NCBI RefSeq assembly: GCF_029873215.1
Contig: NZ_CP123620.1
Coordinates: 3,844,001 to 3,908,000, forward strand
DNA: 64,000 nucleotides
Direction: 5' to 3'
Source of the DNA: Nocardioides sp. BP30
Lineage (GTDB): Bacteria > Actinomycetota > Actinomycetes > Propionibacteriales > Nocardioidaceae
The stretch's first letter is position 1. Every line of letters starts with the position of its first letter. The position numbers and the translations under genes are program-made. The notes under the pieces were generated by a model. It did no database searches, was not told the DNA's origin, and saw only the letters and a list, made by a program, of their open reading frames with translations. This document shows positions 32,046 through 41,768 of the stretch, one piece after another.

Positions 32046-32356
32046 CTAGGAAACTGTAAATTCCCGAAGATCAGGCGGCCAAACAACCGTGTACCTATCG
32101 CCGTCAATTGCTCGGTACGCCGCCCGCACACCTGGCCATCCCGGCTGCGACGCTAAATTATTTTGAGCTTCTCGAAATGTCTCCAGCGGCCGATCGTGTA
32201 GACAAATATATTCATCTCGCCGGCGCCAAAATCATGTCCGTCTACATATCCATGGTCCGAGTCAAGGAGAAGCTCAAGCGAATCTTCCATGTCAACGAGC
32301 GCGTCGAAATCTTTATCCGAGACGCCCGTCCATTGAAATATGAGTATGAATTGCAT
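32046..32356 (-). pseudogene. small conserved-looking gene with a -1 frameshift
   Basis: From ATG 32356 a frame reads MQFILIFQWTGVSDKDFDAL and continues through DGHDFGAGEMNIFVYT (54 residues). The natural continuation DRPLETFREAQNNLASQ, then RAAYRAIDGDRYTVVWPP, is in the next frame and ends at TAG 32046. Inserting one base near 32195-32197 would restore a single protein of about 103 residues. Function unknown. No ribosome-binding site is seen on this strand. Either a genuine frameshift or a sequencing error. Confidence 0.6.
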
Positions 32357-33091
32357 ATGGCTACCAAGGGTAAGGAGGTGGACGCAGGCCACCTGCGATC
32401 TGCTTTTGAATATTACCGCGCTCCAAAGATCAGCCTCGCGCCGCTGGAGATCGTGTCGGACGCCGACCTGCAGGTTGCTGATACTGACAGGGAAGGCGCC
32501 CGACGCGACGGTAATCGATGCCCAAGATCCCAGCACCGCCGCTGCGGCCACCTGCGTTTTGGCCGCCGTGATCGTCTGCGGAGCCAATTGCGCGTCGACC
32601 GCAGCCGCGAAGTCGATGACCAAGTGCAGCCGAGACACCGGAACACCAAGGTCTGCCGACAAGGTAGCGACGTCGCCAGCGGTGAGGACGGCGCTGCCAA
32701 TGTCGCCAACGGAGTGCCGAAGGATCGCGCCCTGTCCGTGAATAGCCGCAGCGACTGCGAGAGCGGTCCGCGTGGGCCCCGGGTCGCTCACACCGACGAC
32801 GGGAAGCATGCGCATACCAGCGTTGGCGAACCCTTGGCTAACCTCCAAGGGAATCGTCGTGCCGCTGTGAAAGAGCGGAACATGGCTGCAGCCGAACGCC
32901 AGAGTGGTGAGGCCAGGCAAGTACTTCGTCGCGTTGCCGAGCGCCTTGTATAAGCCGGCGAGATGGTTGCCGTCTGCCTCAGAGCACAGCTCGTAGATTA
33001 CGAGCAGTGATGATTCGACCGGCCGGCCGAGCTCGCCGATTGCCTGGAACTCACCCGGCTTGGCCTTCAAGATGGGCCGGTACGTCGTCAC
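32153..33091 (-). CDS. Beta-family protein, probably with a replaced C-terminus
   Basis: 312-residue frame from GTG 33091. The start (TTYRPILKAKPGEFQAIGEL) and the middle (LPVVGVSDPG, DFAAAVDAQL, ITVASGAFPVSIS, then RREADLW) resemble the Beta_protein family (Pfam PF14350), of unknown function and often found on mobile elements. After about residue 235 the frame runs in frame into the separate small gene at 32356, so the last 75 residues (MQFILIFQW onwards) are not expected in this family. The protein is therefore probably truncated. Family assignment is from memory of the N-terminal pattern. Confidence 0.5.
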   Translation of the reverse strand: MTTYRPILKAKPGEFQAIGELGRPVESSLLVIYELCSEADGNHLAGLYKALGNATKYLPGLTTLAFGCSHVPLFHSGTTIPLEVSQGFANAGMRMLPVVGVSDPGPTRTALAVAAAIHGQGAILRHSVGDIGSAVLTAGDVATLSADLGVPVSRLHLVIDFAAAVDAQLAPQTITAAKTQVAAAAVLGSWASITVASGAFPVSISNLQVGVRHDLQRREADLWSAVIFKSRSQVACVHLLTLGSHMQFILIFQWTGVSDKDFDALVDMEDSLELLLDSDHGYVDGHDFGAGEMNIFVYTIGRWRHFEKLKII

Positions 33092-33193: not shown

Positions 33194-33390
33194 GCCACCG
33201 AGGGCGGGACGAAAGAATTCGTCCGTCCTCGGTGTCGTTGCAGCCGTTCGAATGACGTACAGTCTGGTCGGGCTGATCGCCGGTCAGATGCAGCGAACGC
33301 CCGCCGAAGACAATGGATGAACGGACGTTAGCAGCCGGCCCTCGCAAGCGTCTATCGGTCGTTTAGTATCGAGTTAGTAGCATCTGGCTA

Positions 33391-34558
33391 GTGGCGCGTG
33401 GCGTTAGTTCCTGAACGGTTGTGTTTCTGAAATCATCGGGTTATGGCGAATCGTCCTGCCCCGGCGTTGGTGTTGCGTGATGGCGATCGGGAGAAGCTTG
33501 AGGGCTGGCTGCGGTCGAGGTCGGTCCGCGCCGGGCTGGCGAAGCGGGCGCGGATGATCCTGCTGGCTGCTGATGGGGGGGCCAAAGAGGATATCGCGTC
33601 TCGGGTGAGCGCCTCACGAACGACGGTGATCCAGTGGCGGGCCCGCTACGCCGAACGCGGGATCGCGGGCCTGGAGGATCAGGAGCACTCTGGGCGTCCC
33701 CGGGAGCTTGACCACGCCGCGATCGTGACCGCCACCTTGAAACCGCCGCCGAAGAAGCTTGGGGTGACGCACTGGTCGAGCCGCCTGCTGGCGAAACGGT
33801 TGGACACGAGCAACACCACCATCGCTCGGGCATGGCGCTCCTACGGTGTGAAGCCGTGGAAGGCCGAGTCGTTCCGGTTCTCCACCGACCCCGAGCTGGT
33901 CGGGAAGGTCACCGACATCTGCGGGCTCTACCTCGGCGCCAGCCAGGCGGACGGGGGCAGCCCAGCGAACGCGATCGTGCTCAGCGTCGATGAGAAGTCC
34001 CAGATCCAGGCGCTGGACCGCACGGTGCCGATCCTGCCGATGCAAGAAGGCAGGATCGAGCGGCGCTCGCACGACTACTACCGGCACGGCACCACCACCC
34101 TGTTCGCCGCACTCGAGATCGCCACCGGCCAGGTCACCGCGGCCTTGAAACCGAAGCACCGCCACCAGGAGTTCTTGGCCTTCCTCAAGCAGATCGAGCG
34201 GACCTTCCGCGACGCCCTCGACGGGAACGGTGAGCCCGTCGAGCTGCACCTGGTGATGGACAACTACGCCACCCACAAGCACCGAAACGTCCGCGCCTGG
34301 CTAGCCGAACACCCCCGGTTCAAGGTCCACTTCACCCCGACCCACGCCACCTGGATGAACCTCGTCGAGGTCTGGTTCGGCCTGGTCGAACGCCAAGCCG
34401 TCCGCCGCGGCGTCTTCAAGTCTGTTCCCGACCTCAACGCCAAGCGCCGCGCCTACATCGAGGGCTGGAACAAACGCGCCCACCCCTTCGTGTGGACCAA
34501 GACCGCCGAAGCGATCCTCAAGAAGGCCAACCGTCCAACAACTTCAAATCCGCGCCAC
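33391..34558 (+). mobile_element. IS630-family insertion sequence
   Basis: 1,168-base element. The ends are GTGGCGCG (33391-33398) and CGCGCCAC (34551-34558), perfect 8-base inverted repeats, flanked on both sides by TA (33389-33390 and 34559-34560), the TA target duplication typical of IS630/Tc1-mariner elements. It holds one intact transposase. It is inserted between the Beta-family gene and the RHS immunity gene without breaking either. Confidence 0.85.
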
Positions 34559-34561
34559 TAG
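33443..34561 (+). CDS. IS630-family transposase
   Basis: 372-residue DDE transposase. The N-terminal helix-turn-helix pair is KRARMILLAADGGAKEDIASRVSASRTTVIQWRARYAERG. The catalytic core has the first Asp in IVLSVDEKSQIQAL, the second in LVMDNYATHKH and the late Glu in HATWMNLVEVWFGLVERQ. The frame is intact, so the element may be active. The stop codon TAG is built from the flanking TA target duplication plus the next host base. Confidence 0.93.
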   Translation: MANRPAPALVLRDGDREKLEGWLRSRSVRAGLAKRARMILLAADGGAKEDIASRVSASRTTVIQWRARYAERGIAGLEDQEHSGRPRELDHAAIVTATLKPPPKKLGVTHWSSRLLAKRLDTSNTTIARAWRSYGVKPWKAESFRFSTDPELVGKVTDICGLYLGASQADGGSPANAIVLSVDEKSQIQALDRTVPILPMQEGRIERRSHDYYRHGTTTLFAALEIATGQVTAALKPKHRHQEFLAFLKQIERTFRDALDGNGEPVELHLVMDNYATHKHRNVRAWLAEHPRFKVHFTPTHATWMNLVEVWFGLVERQAVRRGVFKSVPDLNAKRRAYIEGWNKRAHPFVWTKTAEAILKKANRPTTSNPRH

Positions 34562-34623
34562 CAGACCGACCTTACACTTGGCAGGATAAGCGGCAATTCG
34601 ACATCAATTCGCGCAACCTGCTC

Positions 34624-35061
34624 CTACGTCTGCTGCACGCGTTGCCGCAGTAGCAACGCCGCAGCGGCCACTATTGCACTGAATGGCAGAACGATCATGA
34701 ACATCAGTAGTAGAGCCTGTAGAACTTGAGTGACGTTCGAACTGAATTCAAGGGCCGAACTCGGACCCATTGCAACATAGGCGACCGCCAAACAGGTATA
34801 GCAACCCGAAAGAACGATAACCGTCAAGATCGAAGTCATGTAGACGGGTCGTAGTGCCCTCAACATTGCCAATGCGGCCACAAAAGCGATCACCGGGCCA
34901 AACAAAATCGCGGCGTCCGGCCAACCGCCAATCCCATCAGCCTCCGCGTCATGCCCGCCCAAGATCGCAACCACCCACGGCGCGATAGATGCCAAGATAA
35001 GCACACATGCGGAAACGAAAAGAACGGTCGAACGACCGCTTAAAGGCTTTACTGTCGTCAC
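34624..35061 (-). CDS. four-helix membrane protein, candidate RHS immunity protein
   Basis: 145-residue protein with four predicted membrane helices (residues about 12-33, 50-72, 77-102 and 115-137) and little else; it ends RQRVQQT. Its GTG start at 35061 overlaps the stop of the RHS toxin gene by four bases (GTGA). A small gene directly behind a polymorphic toxin, translated with it, is the classic place for a cognate immunity gene. A membrane location would suit protection against a phospholipase that acts on the membrane. No homology recognised. Confidence 0.6.
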   Translation of the reverse strand: MTTVKPLSGRSTVLFVSACVLILASIAPWVVAILGGHDAEADGIGGWPDAAILFGPVIAFVAALAMLRALRPVYMTSILTVIVLSGCYTCLAVAYVAMGPSSALEFSSNVTQVLQALLLMFMIVLPFSAIVAAAALLLRQRVQQT

Positions 35062-38000
35062 TTGCACGTCACCGCTCCATTCCGCCAATAGAGGTAGCAT
35101 AGCACGCTGATTGATCTTGTATACTTGCCGATCGTTTTAGTCTTCGCGACGACGGCAGCATGGGCCGTTTGAGCTCGCCGCACGCAGCCACTCCGATCAT
35201 GGAACGGCCCACCTTTGTGGCGATCATAATACCAATTGCAGTTTCGCTTCAATTCCCAGCCGAAGATTCCATCGCAGTCGCTCCGGGCGTTCCCCCAACC
35301 ATATCCCAGGCACATATCGTGATATGCGCATGGACCCTTGAAGCTGACGTCGCCATATCCGTCAGGGTACATCGTGCAATAGTCATGAGTCGAGCCCGAA
35401 GCCCCGCCGTCATAGCAGTACGCACTTGGAACATCGACAAAGCCGCTGTAATCAACGATTGGCTTACCGACCCAATAGCTGCTACTTGGACACTTTGCTT
35501 GACCGCTAATATCCGTGTTATTGATGGGATCTTCGGGATAACCATACGGCGTGGCATTCCCACCCGGAACCGGGTCGACCGACAAGAACGAACCTGTCTT
35601 TGGATTGTATACTCGGGCGCCCATCATAATTAGTGCATTACCCGGAGTATCCGTAGCCCGTTGGTCCTTCCCTAGAAACCCATAGCGCACGCGAGTAGCA
35701 CCAGAATGGATCGGGTTTCCGAATTCGTCGTATTCACCATAACTGCCAATTTGCGCCGACCCAAGCTCAGCCGCTTGTGTCGCGACGAAATCGCCATGAA
35801 TGTTTGTGAGTTGATATGTCATTGAGTCGCCAGTAACGGTCGCCACCGTGCCCAAGCCAGGCAGTTTGACATATCTTGTTCGGATCCATGACGTACCGTC
35901 ATCGCGAGACTCCTCGATGCCACTCGGCGAGTCTGTGACGTCGCTGAATTGATAGCGAACTCGATCCGTCGAGACGCCGCCTTCCGTCGTCGTCGCGGTC
36001 GACGTCCGTCCATCGGGGTCTACGCCGTACGAAACCAAGATATCCGCAGTATCGGCTTCGGGGTTAGTCGGCGTCTCCGAAAGCGACTTGACTTTATCGT
36101 CTGCAAAGTAGGTCGCCTTGGATTCGGAACCCCCGACGTCGTTCAAATCTTCGGCGGGTACCGTCAGCGTGCGGCCGAGCGCGTCGTAGGTATAGCCCGA
36201 GTCGAGTCGCCGACCGGCGTCGTCGTAAGTTGCCGACGTTGAGCTTTGCGCGATGCTTGTCTGGCACGAACCATCGGAAGCCGGTCCGAAGTAGTCGGTG
36301 CGATCTCGCTCCGAACTTGCGGTGAAGTGATATCGGTGAACCGAGCACTCACCTGCCACGGCGCCTGCCCCTGCTGCAGAGCCGTCCCAAGTCCGCACCT
36401 CGATGAGCCGTCCGATCGAATCGTACGAATATCCTTGGCGCGACGAGACCGAATTGCCTGTCACGACTCGATCATCGATATCCACCGCGTTCGCAAAGCT
36501 AAGCATAGGCTGCGATGCATTTTTTGACACGTAGTCGAGGCGAGTCACCGCGAGCGAATTGTTATGCTCTACGACCGCCTGCAAGCCGTTGGGGTAAGAG
36601 ACCGCCGAAACTGCACCCGCAGCGTCGTAGCGAATCGCAAATGTCTCATCAGCGCCCGCCACGACGCCGGCGTCGACTGCTGTCAGCAGACCGCGGTGCT
36701 CACCAGAATTACCACTGGGCTCGTCGTACGTATAGGTGTACGTGCCGGATCCGTCAAAGAATGTGGATACAGCCCCATCTGCGGTGTAGTGGGTCTTCGA
36801 TACAAGTCCGGTGCTATCAGCATAGGAGACGACGCGCCCCCACGAGTCGTAGCCGGTCGCGAGCGTGCTGGTGTCACTTCCCGGCGTACTACCGGCGTCA
36901 GACGACTCCGTTTGCAGGCCAGTCGTAGGACTGTACGTAAGTGTCGTGACGCGCATGTCAACGTCGACTCCGGTGCCGGATACTGAGACTGCTCGACGGG
37001 TCACTCTTCCCACACGGTCATATGTCGTGCTGGTCATCCGCGTAGCGGCACCTGCAGTCTCCGTCACGATGAGGGGCTGCAGATCAGCGTCGTATGACGC
37101 ATAGTGTCGTACGACAGTTGTCCGCCCTGGGGGCTGAATCGCCGCCTCGACAATACAGACCAACCCGTCCCATCGCATGCGATCAGGATGTCCTGTGATG
37201 TCACAGCGCGGATCAGACGAACCGACACCGTAATAGATGGTAATGGTGCTGTGAGCATCGCTGCCCGCACCATTCTGATCTGCGGCACCGCCGGGACTTC
37301 GCGTCTCGATCTGAAGCCCATTCGCGTCGTACCTGTCTGTCTCGACGTTCCAGGAGCCATCTGCGAGCTGGGTCTTAGTCGTCGTCGCAACACCAAGAGT
37401 CCAGCCGTTGCCGTCCCCAGACACGATCGGGCCGTAGCCGTACCGCGTGACTACAACATCATGCTCCGCGGACGCAGAGCCCAGAGCCATTTGGGAGTCA
37501 GCCGCAGACCGACGTTCCTCCACCACTAGGCCGAACGTATTCTCGTCCGCCGCGTACGCCGGCTTTTCCGGTCCCCCGAGTGACGAAGATGAATGCGGCC
37601 CGTCCTGCGCGCCGTCGTAGATGTATGTCGTGTGCGCGCGGTAGAGGCCCACCGTACCGTCTTTAAGAACGGAGGTATCCGCGGGGTCGTATTCGTCCTC
37701 GATCCGCGATCCGTCGCCATCCTGATGGTCGGCGTCCCCGTCATCATTGTAGTAGTTGAACTTTGATTCCAATTCTGCGACCGCTGCCTGCTGCGCGGGG
37801 TCAGTCGACGAACTGAGCGCACGTGCGCGACCGGCCGCGCTCAGCACCCGAGATGCGTTCCCGTAGGCGTCATACCAAGTCGTATCGACCAACCACGTAC
37901 CCGAGCCAGACCCGCTCGGATCAATGTTTCCGTGAACCGCTGTATTAGTCAGTGCGCCGGCGACGTCATAGAACCATAGATTCGCTCTAGTAATGTCGGT

Positions 38001-41000
38001 CGAACTGTCATCGGAAGGCGTGTATACGGCAGCGGCCGCCATCGGCAAGACTGTCTGTCCCCATCGTGCCGCGTTCGACACTGAAAAGTCGACTCCCGTG
38101 GCGGCTGGGTTCAGGCCGTATAGAACCCGCCACGTCGCAAGGCCGCTTCCATCTGTGCTCGCAGAGTCAAGGACACGTGCTGTACGAGTAACGCGGCCCG
38201 CGGCGTCGTACGTGAACGTCCAAGAAGCCTGGCCAGCTGGAGTCACCTTGCTCAGCAAGGTCCTGCCTTCGACCGTCGTGGTGTTGTACTCGTAGGCCGT
38301 GCACAGTGGTACGAGTGGCCCGTTACCAGTATCGGTAGCGTCGGGGTCAGGGCCACACGCAGTCGCCAGGAGCGACGCAGACCCGCTGTAAGTGAAACTC
38401 GCAGCGGTCTCAACGGTCACGTGCTCGCTATCAGCGACGACGCGGTCGATCCGAATGATGCGTTGAACTGCCGATGCACCGGATCCGAAGGTTCCGTAGG
38501 CAAGTCGCAGCCCACGACATCCTGCCTCTTGAACTGCATCGGTGCATGTCGTGGCGTCACCTGGATCGGTTTGTGCGATCCAGGTGGGTGCGCCGGCAGC
38601 GGTTGCGGTCAGCACTACCTCGGGATCATCGCTGTTAGACTCACTCGCCGAAGACGACTCGTATATCCACGTGCCTGCAGTCTCCCCGGTAAGCGCCTGC
38701 GTCCATGTTGTGATCTCACCGCCGTCCCCTCCAGCACCTGCTCGGACCAGAGTTGCTGTCCACGGTCCTGCACTGGGGGTTGTGGTCCCCCCGCTTGTTG
38801 GATCAAGCGTGAGGCGCGAGCCATCGTCAAGCCCGGCCGGCTTGAAGACGATTGGAACTGTCGGCGCAGAAACCTCGTCAGAGTTCGAGACCGGCGCAAA
38901 TTCTTGGGTTGAATTTCCGGCCGTAACCAAGACCAGAGTTCGGTCCTGATCACGACGGTCCACTAGGGTTGCGGCAGCATCGCCCGGAGCCTGAAGAGTC
39001 GTCGACCAACCCGGGCCAAACGGGTCCGTCCGCGCTCCGGCCGACAGCGACGAGCTATCGTATGAATCGAATGTCCGCCCAATACCTGCCGACGCATCGG
39101 CGGCGTCTTGTTCCGACAGGCTCATTTCGCCCGTCGTCAGCGCGACCTTCGCCGGCCCGAGATCCGTGGACGGGAAGTCGCCGCCGAAAGCCGTCGGTAC
39201 GAGCTGCGCACCGCTTTCTATAGCGCACTTACTGATGTCGCCAGGCATGATGAAGCAAATTCGAATGTCGAGACGCGCGGGCGCTGTCAGTTTTTCTTGG
39301 GCCCCGCCTTCGTTTGGCACATACGTCTCAGCACTTGCATTCCAGATTAGTTGCGGCGTGTTTGAAGTAGATTCAGGACCTCCCGGGATTGTGCCTGACA
39401 CGACGGAGCCTTGCCAAGCGCCGCCGGTTTCCGTGTCGATTAGTTGGTCGTCGGTTACCTGGTCCGCGACCAGCGGGATCCACGAGGTCGACCCGGAGAA
39501 TCGCCAGCTTGCGGTAGCTCTAACGGCGCCCGAGGGGCCGTCGGCTTGTATGGGAAAAGAGCCGGTGGAAACCGTATCGGAAGTTAGACTGTCCATTCCG
39601 GCTGGACCCGCTCCGAAACCGAAAGTCTCTTTCTTTCCAACGTTTCCGGCCTTATCAGTAGCTGTTGCCAAGATTGTGTTGACGCCTTTGGTAGGGGTCC
39701 AAGCGAAGGTTGCAACCCCGGAAGCGTTGGCGCTGACGCTCGCGGGCGCGCCGCCGTTGAGTGTATAGCTGAAGGTCTTCGTGTCTGCGGAGCCCGTGAG
39801 CGTAAAGGTATCGGCGACGGGCCCCGTCGAGTCCCACTGGCCTTGGATATATTTGGCGGCGTTGATAGTCGTCGTCGGGGGGCTTGTATCAACGGTGAAA
39901 GTCGTCGCTGCCGAAGGCGCGCTGGTTACATACGGGTCCTGTGCTGTTGCCGTGACCGAATAGGTGCCCCCGTCAATGAGCTTCCCAGCCGGAACCTGGA
40001 TCGACGCAGCACCCTGCGCGCCTGCGGCCGTACTGCCTGTCCACACGACTGCGGCGCCTTGCTTGATGGTGAAGTTCGCGTGCACGCTGCCATCGGAGTC
40101 GGTGAGAGTGGTCATGAGCTTCGGCGTCGTTGATGTAGAAAACCCGGCATTACTGGGAGTGGAGGTTGTAGTTACCGTGGGCGCCGTCGGCGTGCTCGGG
40201 ACGGTGTTGAACGTGACCGCCAGGGCCGGGACGCGGCCCGTGGAATTGCATGCTGGGGCACTGGAGTCGGGCTGGTGCGAACAGAAGGTCTTATCCTGAA
40301 TGTCGGCAGTCTCATCGCTTGCGCGCAACATCACACCGTCGTTCTCGAGGGTACCGGCATACCACGCCCGAACCATTGAGGTGACGTCGATCGATCCGAA
40401 AGCGTTAGGGCAGCTGTTTGAGTAGCCGTGGGACCACGATGCCGATCCAGCGTAAGAGCTTGTATAAGTCGGCTGCGTAGCCCAAACGTCAGTGGCGTAC
40501 CAGAGCGACGTGATCGGATAGGCCAGCATCGGCTGCGACGCGCAGGAGTTGGAGACAGTGTTAAAAATGCTCAGGGACGCGGAGATGATTGTCTTGCCGC
40601 TCGGAACGGCGCTGAGTGGAAAATTCAGCAGCGCGCGGCGTTTGTCGCCGGAAACGTCACCAAACTTGAGATTGTAATCTCCGCCATGTGAGGTCAGATC
40701 ACCTTGCCGGATCCAAGTATCACGGCTGGGCGTGATGTTCACGGCAGGGTCGATCGTGACGGGGTAGACCGTTGCGGGGTCGTTCAAAAAGTTTTTCAAA
40801 TTCTCCGGAGCAACGCCTGATGCGTCGGTTATGCCGAGATTCAAGCTACCAGGAGTTGTTGGCCCGGCTGCCTCACTGGTGCTCTCATTTTGGGCTGTAT
40901 CACCAGGGGTGAGAGTATTCGCAACGGTGATAGAGTTCACGGGCGTACCGTCTGGATCCACCTTTGCGTCATAGATGACCGGCGCTGTAACAGTCATCGC

Positions 41001-41768
41001 TGTCTGCCCCCGGCTTTTCCCTGCTGTCGCGTTGAGAACGACCGCTCCTGGCTGATCGCTGTCGCTGGTCGTTGGCTTTAGTCCGGAGGTACCGATCTGC
41101 AGGGCGAGGCCATCGAGAGATGCGAGATTCGCTGGCTTGTTGGCGAGGACGTACGATTCTTCCATGCCGTGGGCGGTGGCACTCAATACCAGGTCAACGT
41201 TGGTGCTGACTTTGTAAGTTGCGCTGTTTCCACTGATGACAGGAACGGGCAGTTTCTTATCGAACGATAGACTCAATTCCTTTGCGCCCTTGGTCGCCAT
41301 AGCGGCCGGTCCATCACCACCGCCAGAGAAGACAACATTGACCGGCGACGCCTTGGGCGCGTAGTTCCCGTCGGCGGTAGGGACCAGATCGTAATCGACC
41401 GGTACCCAACTGCCATGATCGTCGAGAATGCGAACGGGCGAGATTGCCGTTTCGACAGTAACAGTGCCGTCTGGGTTGGCCCAGGCTGTCGAGTATTGAG
41501 TGCGATCGCTCGTGATCTCGACTCTAGATCCCTGCCGCCGAGCATTCACTCGCGCCGACACTTCGTCCGGCGAGGTCGTGACCTTCCCCGCAGCGTCGTG
41601 CACTACGGGCGCTGCCTCCGCAGCGTCCGTCAATGGCGTCACCGCTGCAGGAAGATATGCCGAAGCAACCACTAGTGCGATGCCGGCAAGGGCACTGCGG
41701 CGGACGCCACCGAACAGATTACTGGGTGAATTCGTGGTCTTACGAGTGAAGACGAGACGATCTCGCAT
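35058..41768 (-). CDS. secreted RHS-repeat polymorphic toxin with phospholipase-A2-like C-terminus
   Basis: 2,236-residue protein. A Sec signal peptide (residues about 22-52, ending AAEAAP) is followed by a beta-rich region with a DNRLRE-type domain (DTWIRQGDLTSHGGDYNLKFG), Ig-like stretches (FTVDTSPPTTTINAAKYIQG), and many RHS/YD repeats (YDAAGRVTR, YDRVGRVTRR, YDSWGRVVSY, YDSIGRLIEV). The RHS core ends with GARVYNPKTGSFLSVDPVPG. The last 147 residues (35061-35501) differ: ten Cys and FKGPCAYHDMCLGYG then RSDCDGIFGWELKRNC, the His-Asp and Cys pattern of phospholipase A2. ATG 41768 follows GGGGGG; an in-frame ATG at 41816 is less likely. Base composition is AT-richer than neighbours. Coupled by GTGA to the membrane gene. 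Confidence 0.88.
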   Translation of the reverse strand: MRDRLVFTRKTTNSPSNLFGGVRRSALAGIALVVASAYLPAAVTPLTDAAEAAPVVHDAAGKVTTSPDEVSARVNARRQGSRVEITSDRTQYSTAWANPDGTVTVETAISPVRILDDHGSWVPVDYDLVPTADGNYAPKASPVNVVFSGGGDGPAAMATKGAKELSLSFDKKLPVPVISGNSATYKVSTNVDLVLSATAHGMEESYVLANKPANLASLDGLALQIGTSGLKPTTSDSDQPGAVVLNATAGKSRGQTAMTVTAPVIYDAKVDPDGTPVNSITVANTLTPGDTAQNESTSEAAGPTTPGSLNLGITDASGVAPENLKNFLNDPATVYPVTIDPAVNITPSRDTWIRQGDLTSHGGDYNLKFGDVSGDKRRALLNFPLSAVPSGKTIISASLSIFNTVSNSCASQPMLAYPITSLWYATDVWATQPTYTSSYAGSASWSHGYSNSCPNAFGSIDVTSMVRAWYAGTLENDGVMLRASDETADIQDKTFCSHQPDSSAPACNSTGRVPALAVTFNTVPSTPTAPTVTTTSTPSNAGFSTSTTPKLMTTLTDSDGSVHANFTIKQGAAVVWTGSTAAGAQGAASIQVPAGKLIDGGTYSVTATAQDPYVTSAPSAATTFTVDTSPPTTTINAAKYIQGQWDSTGPVADTFTLTGSADTKTFSYTLNGGAPASVSANASGVATFAWTPTKGVNTILATATDKAGNVGKKETFGFGAGPAGMDSLTSDTVSTGSFPIQADGPSGAVRATASWRFSGSTSWIPLVADQVTDDQLIDTETGGAWQGSVVSGTIPGGPESTSNTPQLIWNASAETYVPNEGGAQEKLTAPARLDIRICFIMPGDISKCAIESGAQLVPTAFGGDFPSTDLGPAKVALTTGEMSLSEQDAADASAGIGRTFDSYDSSSLSAGARTDPFGPGWSTTLQAPGDAAATLVDRRDQDRTLVLVTAGNSTQEFAPVSNSDEVSAPTVPIVFKPAGLDDGSRLTLDPTSGGTTTPSAGPWTATLVRAGAGGDGGEITTWTQALTGETAGTWIYESSSASESNSDDPEVVLTATAAGAPTWIAQTDPGDATTCTDAVQEAGCRGLRLAYGTFGSGASAVQRIIRIDRVVADSEHVTVETAASFTYSGSASLLATACGPDPDATDTGNGPLVPLCTAYEYNTTTVEGRTLLSKVTPAGQASWTFTYDAAGRVTRTARVLDSASTDGSGLATWRVLYGLNPAATGVDFSVSNAARWGQTVLPMAAAAVYTPSDDSSTDITRANLWFYDVAGALTNTAVHGNIDPSGSGSGTWLVDTTWYDAYGNASRVLSAAGRARALSSSTDPAQQAAVAELESKFNYYNDDGDADHQDGDGSRIEDEYDPADTSVLKDGTVGLYRAHTTYIYDGAQDGPHSSSSLGGPEKPAYAADENTFGLVVEERRSAADSQMALGSASAEHDVVVTRYGYGPIVSGDGNGWTLGVATTTKTQLADGSWNVETDRYDANGLQIETRSPGGAADQNGAGSDAHSTITIYYGVGSSDPRCDITGHPDRMRWDGLVCIVEAAIQPPGRTTVVRHYASYDADLQPLIVTETAGAATRMTSTTYDRVGRVTRRAVSVSGTGVDVDMRVTTLTYSPTTGLQTESSDAGSTPGSDTSTLATGYDSWGRVVSYADSTGLVSKTHYTADGAVSTFFDGSGTYTYTYDEPSGNSGEHRGLLTAVDAGVVAGADETFAIRYDAAGAVSAVSYPNGLQAVVEHNNSLAVTRLDYVSKNASQPMLSFANAVDIDDRVVTGNSVSSRQGYSYDSIGRLIEVRTWDGSAAGAGAVAGECSVHRYHFTASSERDRTDYFGPASDGSCQTSIAQSSTSATYDDAGRRLDSGYTYDALGRTLTVPAEDLNDVGGSESKATYFADDKVKSLSETPTNPEADTADILVSYGVDPDGRTSTATTTEGGVSTDRVRYQFSDVTDSPSGIEESRDDGTSWIRTRYVKLPGLGTVATVTGDSMTYQLTNIHGDFVATQAAELGSAQIGSYGEYDEFGNPIHSGATRVRYGFLGKDQRATDTPGNALIMMGARVYNPKTGSFLSVDPVPGGNATPYGYPEDPINNTDISGQAKCPSSSYWVGKPIVDYSGFVDVPSAYCYDGGASGSTHDYCTMYPDGYGDVSFKGPCAYHDMCLGYGWGNARSDCDGIFGWELKRNCNWYYDRHKGGPFHDRSGCVRRAQTAHAAVVAKTKTIGKYTRSISVLCYLYWRNGAVTCK

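Follow-up and report, generated by a model that had tools for sequence, protein, structure and literature searches.

Phospholipases A2 (PLA2) are used as toxins in venoms, immune systems and bacteria, and WapA/WapI of Bacillus subtilis exemplifies the exported Gram-positive RHS toxin with a variable tip and an adjacent immunity gene, the immunity protein in that case being cytoplasmic. Here we describe a locus of Nocardioides sp. BP30, lying within a window of 64,000 nucleotides (the whole stretch of DNA analysed: contig NZ_CP123620.1, positions 3,844,001–3,908,000, forward strand), in which a 2,236-residue RHS protein carries a PLA2-like tip, where WapA carries a tRNase, and is followed by a gene for a small membrane protein (hereafter the partner). 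The PLA2 fold (1kp4) was tabled in 2012 as the polymorphic-toxin domain Tox-PLA2, found with RHS and ALF repeats, with Actinobacteria among the lineages listed and the immunity column left empty (Zhang et al., PMC3482391).

Relative to that description, the window tip contains the DxC[ST] motif (as DYCT) but matches only half of CxxHxxxYxN, having CxxH, then HDMCLG, without HxxxYxN; and it has a coupled membrane gene where the table gives no immunity protein. By profile the tip is the same domain, with the same His/Asp dyad, as the group XIV secreted enzymes SvPLA2 (1faz/1kp4/1lwb) and TbSP1 (4aup); these are stand-alone proteins with two disulfides (PMC11525133, PMC9728194), whereas here the domain is the ten-Cys tip of a 2,236-residue protein and has a partner gene. 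A preliminary description of the locus, made from its sequence, had judged a PLA2 tip with a membrane partner uncommon in an actinobacterium; the tip on RHS proteins, Actinobacteria included, has been known since 2012 (PMC3482391), and it is the recurrent partner that seems new.

The tip belongs to the PLA2 family and retains its active-site residues, and genes for such domains are repeatedly paired with a small multi-helix membrane gene. We think it likely that the locus encodes an RHS polymorphic toxin whose PLA2 tip would attack membranes from outside, with the membrane-embedded partner as immunity protein, both activity and immunity being predictions from sequence.

The PLA2-like tip and its RHS scaffold

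The features of the locus, in window positions, are as follows.

35058–41768, minus strand: RHS protein (P0001), 2,236 residues, ATG at 41768, stop TGA at 35060–35058
41613–41768, minus strand: probable Sec signal peptide, about residues 1–52 (basic n-region, hydrophobic stretch, AEA-AP; by eye)
40275–40721, minus strand: DNRLRE domain, residues 350–498 (NF033679, E 1.5e-21)
35499–35732, minus strand: RHS repeat-associated core, residues 2013–2090 (TIGR03696 Rhs_assc_core, E 1.3e-10)
35061–35501, minus strand: PLA2 tip, residues 2090–2236, ten Cys (sequence and family profile)
35382–35384, minus strand: Asp2129 (tip D40) in DYC, kept in at least 90% of 50 aligned rows
35316–35321, minus strand: His2150-Asp2151 (tip H61-D62), invariant across the 50-row family alignment
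35271–35273, minus strand: Asp2166 (tip D77), which aligns to the dyad Asp of PLA2 enzymes (His/Asp) and is invariant in a 5-row alignment
35075–35078, minus strand: GGAG, Shine–Dalgarno-like, inside the RHS gene (by eye)
34624–35067, minus strand: partner, a four-helix membrane protein and immunity candidate, 145 residues from GTG 35061 or 147 residues from GTG 35067

The open reading frame (ORF) and the TIGR03696 core bear out the 2,236-residue RHS protein of the preliminary description, and the 147-residue end with its ten Cys and the patterns GPCAYHDMC and RSDCD..F..ELKRNC can all be read in the sequence. The core boundary GARVYNPKTGSFLSVDP is present, RHS/YD repeat models score just under their cut-offs, and the N-terminus is Sec-like as judged by eye only.

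Scanned alone, the tip has zero Pfam matches at E 1, so that PF09056 is not reached directly, and its sole match in the PDB was judged noise; its PLA2 identity is visible only through a family profile. Relatives were found in 4 of 294 genomes of the same family (Nocardioidaceae, own genome counted), and the tip alignments matched 12 of 391 genomes at the level of the order, 84 of 394 in the class and 13 of 396 in the phylum; two plasmid records, both from Arthrobacter and annotated as phospholipase A2, also match, and tblastn of viral contigs yielded no relative of the tip. All 15 relatives scanned match PF09056 at E below 0.05, and six of them pass its cut-off (two of five in a first set, four of ten in a second). 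The family profile finds the solved structures of SvPLA2 (1faz/1kp4/1lwb, E 9e-23), the truffle enzyme (4aup, 2.2e-21), 8k1w (4.1e-18) and 7ygk (1.2e-16). As the underlying 50-row alignment (A3) includes the window tip, the profile was rebuilt without it as a control; among the 313 ORFs of the window it then matches one, the RHS ORF, at E 4.5e-21. With the His-Asp pair intact, the PLA2-like tip of the preliminary description is upheld, and by family membership we assign the last 147 residues to a divergent group-XIV-like PLA2 domain.

Seven tip positions are invariant in the 50 rows (C42, F54, C58, H61, D62, C88, and C106), and the tip keeps His2150, Asp2151, Asp2166, Asp2129, and the four invariant Cys, which correspond to those of the two core disulfides and would be bonded accordingly; four of its ten Cys lie outside the six of its nearest relatives. 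The tip D40 is presumably the Asp of the Ca2+ loop, with a role in Ca2+ binding. For group XIV enzymes, a His/Asp dyad and the Asp that follows the His are named as catalytic (PMC11525133), and their counterparts in the tip are H61, D77, and D62, respectively; SvPLA2 requires Ca2+ and has two disulfides (PMC9728194).

The scaffold that presents this domain was followed with a 193-residue stretch ending in the RHS core, which matches 15 of 118 genomes of the genus (own counted), three further copies lying in the own genome. From 24 scaffold loci, one without a match on reading (L083) and the window itself were set aside; the remaining 22 have tails of 14 to 430 residues, 21 of them different (L077 and L087 share one), and among ten tails scanned PT-HINT was found in two (one with DUF4258) and a DNA/RNA nuclease in one. 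The same core precedes different tips in relatives of the same genus, as expected of the polymorphic-toxin scaffold that had been proposed, and we take it to be one on this sequence pattern. The PLA2 profile matches no ORF of these other-tip loci, and an ORF of three or more helices follows none of the 22, a few downstream genes being cut off by the end of the examined stretch. The three further cores of the own genome (L086, L091, and L093) likewise carry other tips; that of L093 is glycine-rich and hydrophobic and is followed by a 122-residue two-helix ORF, which could be a pore-forming pair.

The membrane partner and its recurrence beside PLA2 domains

The partner had been described as a coupled 145-residue four-helix gene. 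The overlap and the four segments stand: a GTG at 35061 overlaps the RHS stop as GTGA and gives 145 residues reading to 34624, and a simple hydropathy rule places hydrophobic segments at residues 13–31, 52–70, 78–96, and 116–134. The length is more likely 147 residues, as in the protein database entry, which by its length begins at GTG 35067, 7 bases after the GGAG; from that start, the overlap with the RHS gene is probably 10 bases. The predicted outside loops hold no basic and five acidic residues, the inside loops five basic and no acidic ones. A search of about 5.8 billion proteins, limited to those sharing exact 5-residue words and scoring 859 candidates, gave no relative of the partner, and neither Pfam nor NCBIfam gave anything above cut-off, so that no described membrane or immunity family is matched; PADLOC ZorA (E 0.055), Pfam Trp_oprn_chp (E 0.74), and NCBIfam PRK10633 (E 0.097) were judged noise. 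Nine further genomes from the family gave weak matches (E 2e-4 to 8e-3), which were set down to shared hydrophobicity and not taken as homologues: eight sit in frames of 309–867 residues, and the ninth (L103) is a 141-residue three-helix ORF that has a regulator gene behind it and neither an RHS nor a PLA2 gene noticed in its 3.2 kb.

The evidence for a coupled partner comes from other PLA2 loci, 51 of which were supplied by a scan of genome contigs. In a first count, a partner was defined as an ORF of 90–200 residues with at least three hydrophobic segments, starting at −60 to +40 of the PLA2 stop; such an ORF accompanies 20 of 66 PLA2 loci, vs 3 of the 441 remaining long ORFs at these loci (Fisher p 1.5e-16). 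Raising the limit to 60 bases and adding 38 further loci, 14 of them hand-picked for open frames of 247–2,217 residues, gave 25 of 105 with the window included, a ratio that is not a frequency, many class-level matches lying outside the sample. Loci that duplicate others or the window were dropped (L001, L005, L006, L007, L105, L107, L108, L111, L112, L116, L117, L119, L122, L123, L126, L127, L130, L136, and L141), and those retained are not independent, with near-copies or close kin in L054/L055/L061, L059/L062, L064/L067, L040/L047, and L002/L003. These counts bear on the view that homologous tips might consistently lack a membrane gene, which they do not. On a poorly resolved PLA2 tree, where the window sits unplaced on a long branch without a supported set, the partner labels (here also given to L026, L060, and L069) need 8 to 10 changes vs 19 to 21 in shuffles, so that they appear clustered but not of one origin.

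As in the window, the partner ORF overlaps the PLA2 stop at L002, L003, L024, L040, and L047. A second small membrane gene lies directly behind the first at L024, L054, and L061 (two of them near-copies), a tandem that resembles an immunity array. At L003 (4349–5267) the Arthrobacter PLA2 locus occurs a second time, broken into two ORFs; its partner ORF is present, and a Tn3 family transposase adjoins it. In a topology set of 18 partners, window included and some being kin of each other, all 14 scored as four-helix proteins have more Lys/Arg in the predicted inside loops, in an N-in/C-in arrangement; the other four (three or five helices by the simple hydropathy rule) give no clear topology. 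Acidic outer loops are not general: in L044 and L049, basic residues outnumber acidic ones on the outside.

PLA2 tips were observed on six RHS/YD-repeat proteins (the window's and L144–L148), three of which have a membrane gene. L144 comes from a different family within the class and repeats the arrangement: the end of its core is very similar, its tip contains CDTHDLGYEL, and a 123-residue three-helix ORF lies at +12. L147 has a three-helix ORF whose in-range start is a TTG at +44. At L145, L146, and L148 the 60-base limit takes in no small membrane gene; L145 has a 259-residue six-helix ORF at +209.

Proposed mechanism and alternative explanations

From these features we infer secretion, toxicity, a target, a site of action, and an immunity role, which would combine as follows. 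The RHS protein of this Gram-positive actinobacterium would be exported by Sec, its shell carrying the C-terminal tip; the tip would be a secreted-type, Ca2+-dependent, disulfide-stabilized PLA2. It would hydrolyse the phospholipids of nearby cells, most probably on their outside, where Ca2+ and oxidizing conditions permit folding and work. In the cytoplasm, which is reducing and poor in Ca2+, an enzyme that is rich in disulfides and needs Ca2+ should have no activity, which it should gain outside the cell. The co-translated four-helix partner, with its termini inside and two acidic loops outside, would then be the cognate immunity protein, probably blocking the enzyme at the producer's own membrane.

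If the RHS scaffold carried a lipase that scavenges nutrients or is directed at a host, the membrane gene could be a chance neighbour. Such an origin would account for the 80 of 105 PLA2 loci that are uncoupled, 47 of which encode short proteins no longer than 215 residues (from Williamsia, Nocardia, Microbacterium, Streptomyces, and others, including most of the Streptomyces type), and for the three RHS-PLA2 proteins that lack a membrane gene; it sits poorly with the enrichment over background ORFs (20 of 66 vs 3 of 441), with the overlapped PLA2 stops at five other loci, with recurrence beside the RHS-PLA2 protein of L144, and with the distribution of protein lengths. Among partnered loci 19 of 25 PLA2 proteins exceed 215 residues, vs 33 of 80 unpartnered ones, the six short partnered proteins being counted with the caution that the choice of start codon has probably cut some of these ORFs short. 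We regard a chance neighbour as unlikely, and nearly the same holds, by a slightly smaller measure, for a helper that, for example, exports the PLA2 protein, anchors it in the membrane, or displays it, in place of an immunity protein. The shared strand, overlapping genes, and membrane location would suit a helper; against it, the partner goes with the tip and not with the scaffold (0 of 22 other RHS cores), partner sequences are very variable, and a gene with a lipoprotein-like start takes the partner's place at L058, L063, and L070 (by eye; the automatic pattern caught only L070). That the PLA2 fold of the tip is inactive or serves another purpose, for instance as a lipid-binding module, with any toxicity coming from elsewhere, we hold to be very improbable: the tip is certainly divergent (its long branch, 15–40% identity to the 49 other rows of the alignment, and the four additional Cys), but the His, the three Asp, and the four invariant Cys are all retained.

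Several results weigh against the toxin–immunity reading. The tip has no Pfam match of its own, and a profile from ten Streptomyces-type enzymes alone scores it weakly (10.2 bits), placing it in a divergent branch marked by CxxHDxC; the partner is an orphan; and half of the RHS/YD-repeat proteins with a PLA2 tip lack a small membrane gene close by. The 80 unpartnered loci count likewise, and not all have an evident substitute. Beyond the lipoprotein-like genes, L060 and L069 have a 3–4-helix gene just upstream of the PLA2 gene and L026 a four-helix ORF 108 bases downstream; nothing comparable was seen at 27 of the 33 longer unpartnered proteins, and our confidence is lowered because of these 27. 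Nor is homology among the partners demonstrable: leave-one-out profiles, run against decoys drawn from the remaining small membrane ORFs at the partners' loci (28, then 24), did not separate partners from decoys. The window partner ranked 20th of 29 in the first test, where four high-scoring decoys were second membrane genes beside PLA2 genes; in the second test those four were removed from the decoys and two of them added to the partners (the others being near-copies), and several partners ranked first, with the window's 7th of 25, or 16th by hhalign. Two frequent top decoys of that test adjoin PLA2 genes upstream (L060 and L069) and were kept as decoys. We do not claim that the partners form one homologous family.

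More tentatively, and at somewhat under even chances given the 27 longer proteins without a partner, the small four-helix N-in/C-in proteins could make up a rapidly evolving and so far undescribed class of immunity proteins by which secreted PLA2 toxins are stopped at the surface of the membrane. They would accompany the PLA2 domain on secreted scaffolds of both RHS and non-RHS kinds among Actinobacteria, lipoprotein-like genes replacing them at some loci; one partnered PLA2 record (L044) is titled Tissierella.

Surroundings of the locus and comparison with known systems

Two elements adjoin the locus.

33387–34562, plus strand: IS630-type element, transposase at 33443–34561 (NF033545, E 2e-68)
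32153–33091, minus strand: 312-residue protein, Pfam Beta_protein PF14350 (E 2.1e-21), adjoining the IS element and the RHS locus

The IS630-type element lies about 60 bases past the end of the immunity candidate and has 12-base perfect inverted ends (GCTAGTGGCGCG/CGCGCCACTAGC) at 33387 and 34551–34562. The RHS gene has a GC content of about 60%, vs 69% for the window (tip 54.1%, partner 54.8%, RHS body 59.6%), and the whole RHS locus, not just the tip, looks foreign or unusual by this measure. Base composition as evidence for a tip swap (a chimera) was set aside, as the tip GC at third codon positions (GC3, 59.5%) falls inside the spread of RHS-body windows (mean 64.3, s.d. 4.4, minimum 53.1).

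What seems new here is the recurrent membrane partner beside PLA2 tips, apparently undescribed; the tip itself is known. No immunity protein is named for a PLA2 toxin domain in the titles and abstract openings searched in the non-subscription literature, with passages covered in PMC3482391, PMC12419801, PMC12994826 (no mention of PLA2) and PMC11470151 (an alpha/beta-hydrolase effector).

The closest functional parallels come from other folds and secretion routes. TslA/TilA of Staphylococcus aureus resembles our proposal in being a secreted Ca2+-dependent phospholipase A with extracellular toxicity and immunity outside the membrane, and its authors speculate likewise on Ca2+ for their toxin; TslA differs in being inactivated by changes at S164, D224, or H251, in its delivery by a type VII secretion system (T7SS), and in its lipoprotein immunity (PMC10730906). 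The lipoprotein-like genes at L058, L063, and L070 recall this pair. Tle/Tli of Enterobacter cloacae is also an antibacterial phospholipase (A1 and A2 activity) with dedicated immunity, but the enzyme is an alpha/beta-hydrolase delivered by a type VI secretion system and the immunity protein a lipoprotein with ankyrin repeats (PMC11470151). In EsxX/ExiCD, polytopic membrane proteins protect against an extracellular antibacterial toxin, as we propose for the partner; EsxX differs in that it depolarizes membranes, is no lipase, and belongs to the LXG/T7SS toxins (PMC12744356). An outward-facing, membrane-embedded immunity protein would fit action from outside in the way that ExiCD fits the extracellular EsxX, and such a partner predicts that the toxin acts there, unlike nuclease tips on a like scaffold, which must enter the cytoplasm. 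The recurrent membrane partner suggests a testable explanation of how a producer shields its own membrane from a lipid-cutting toxin.

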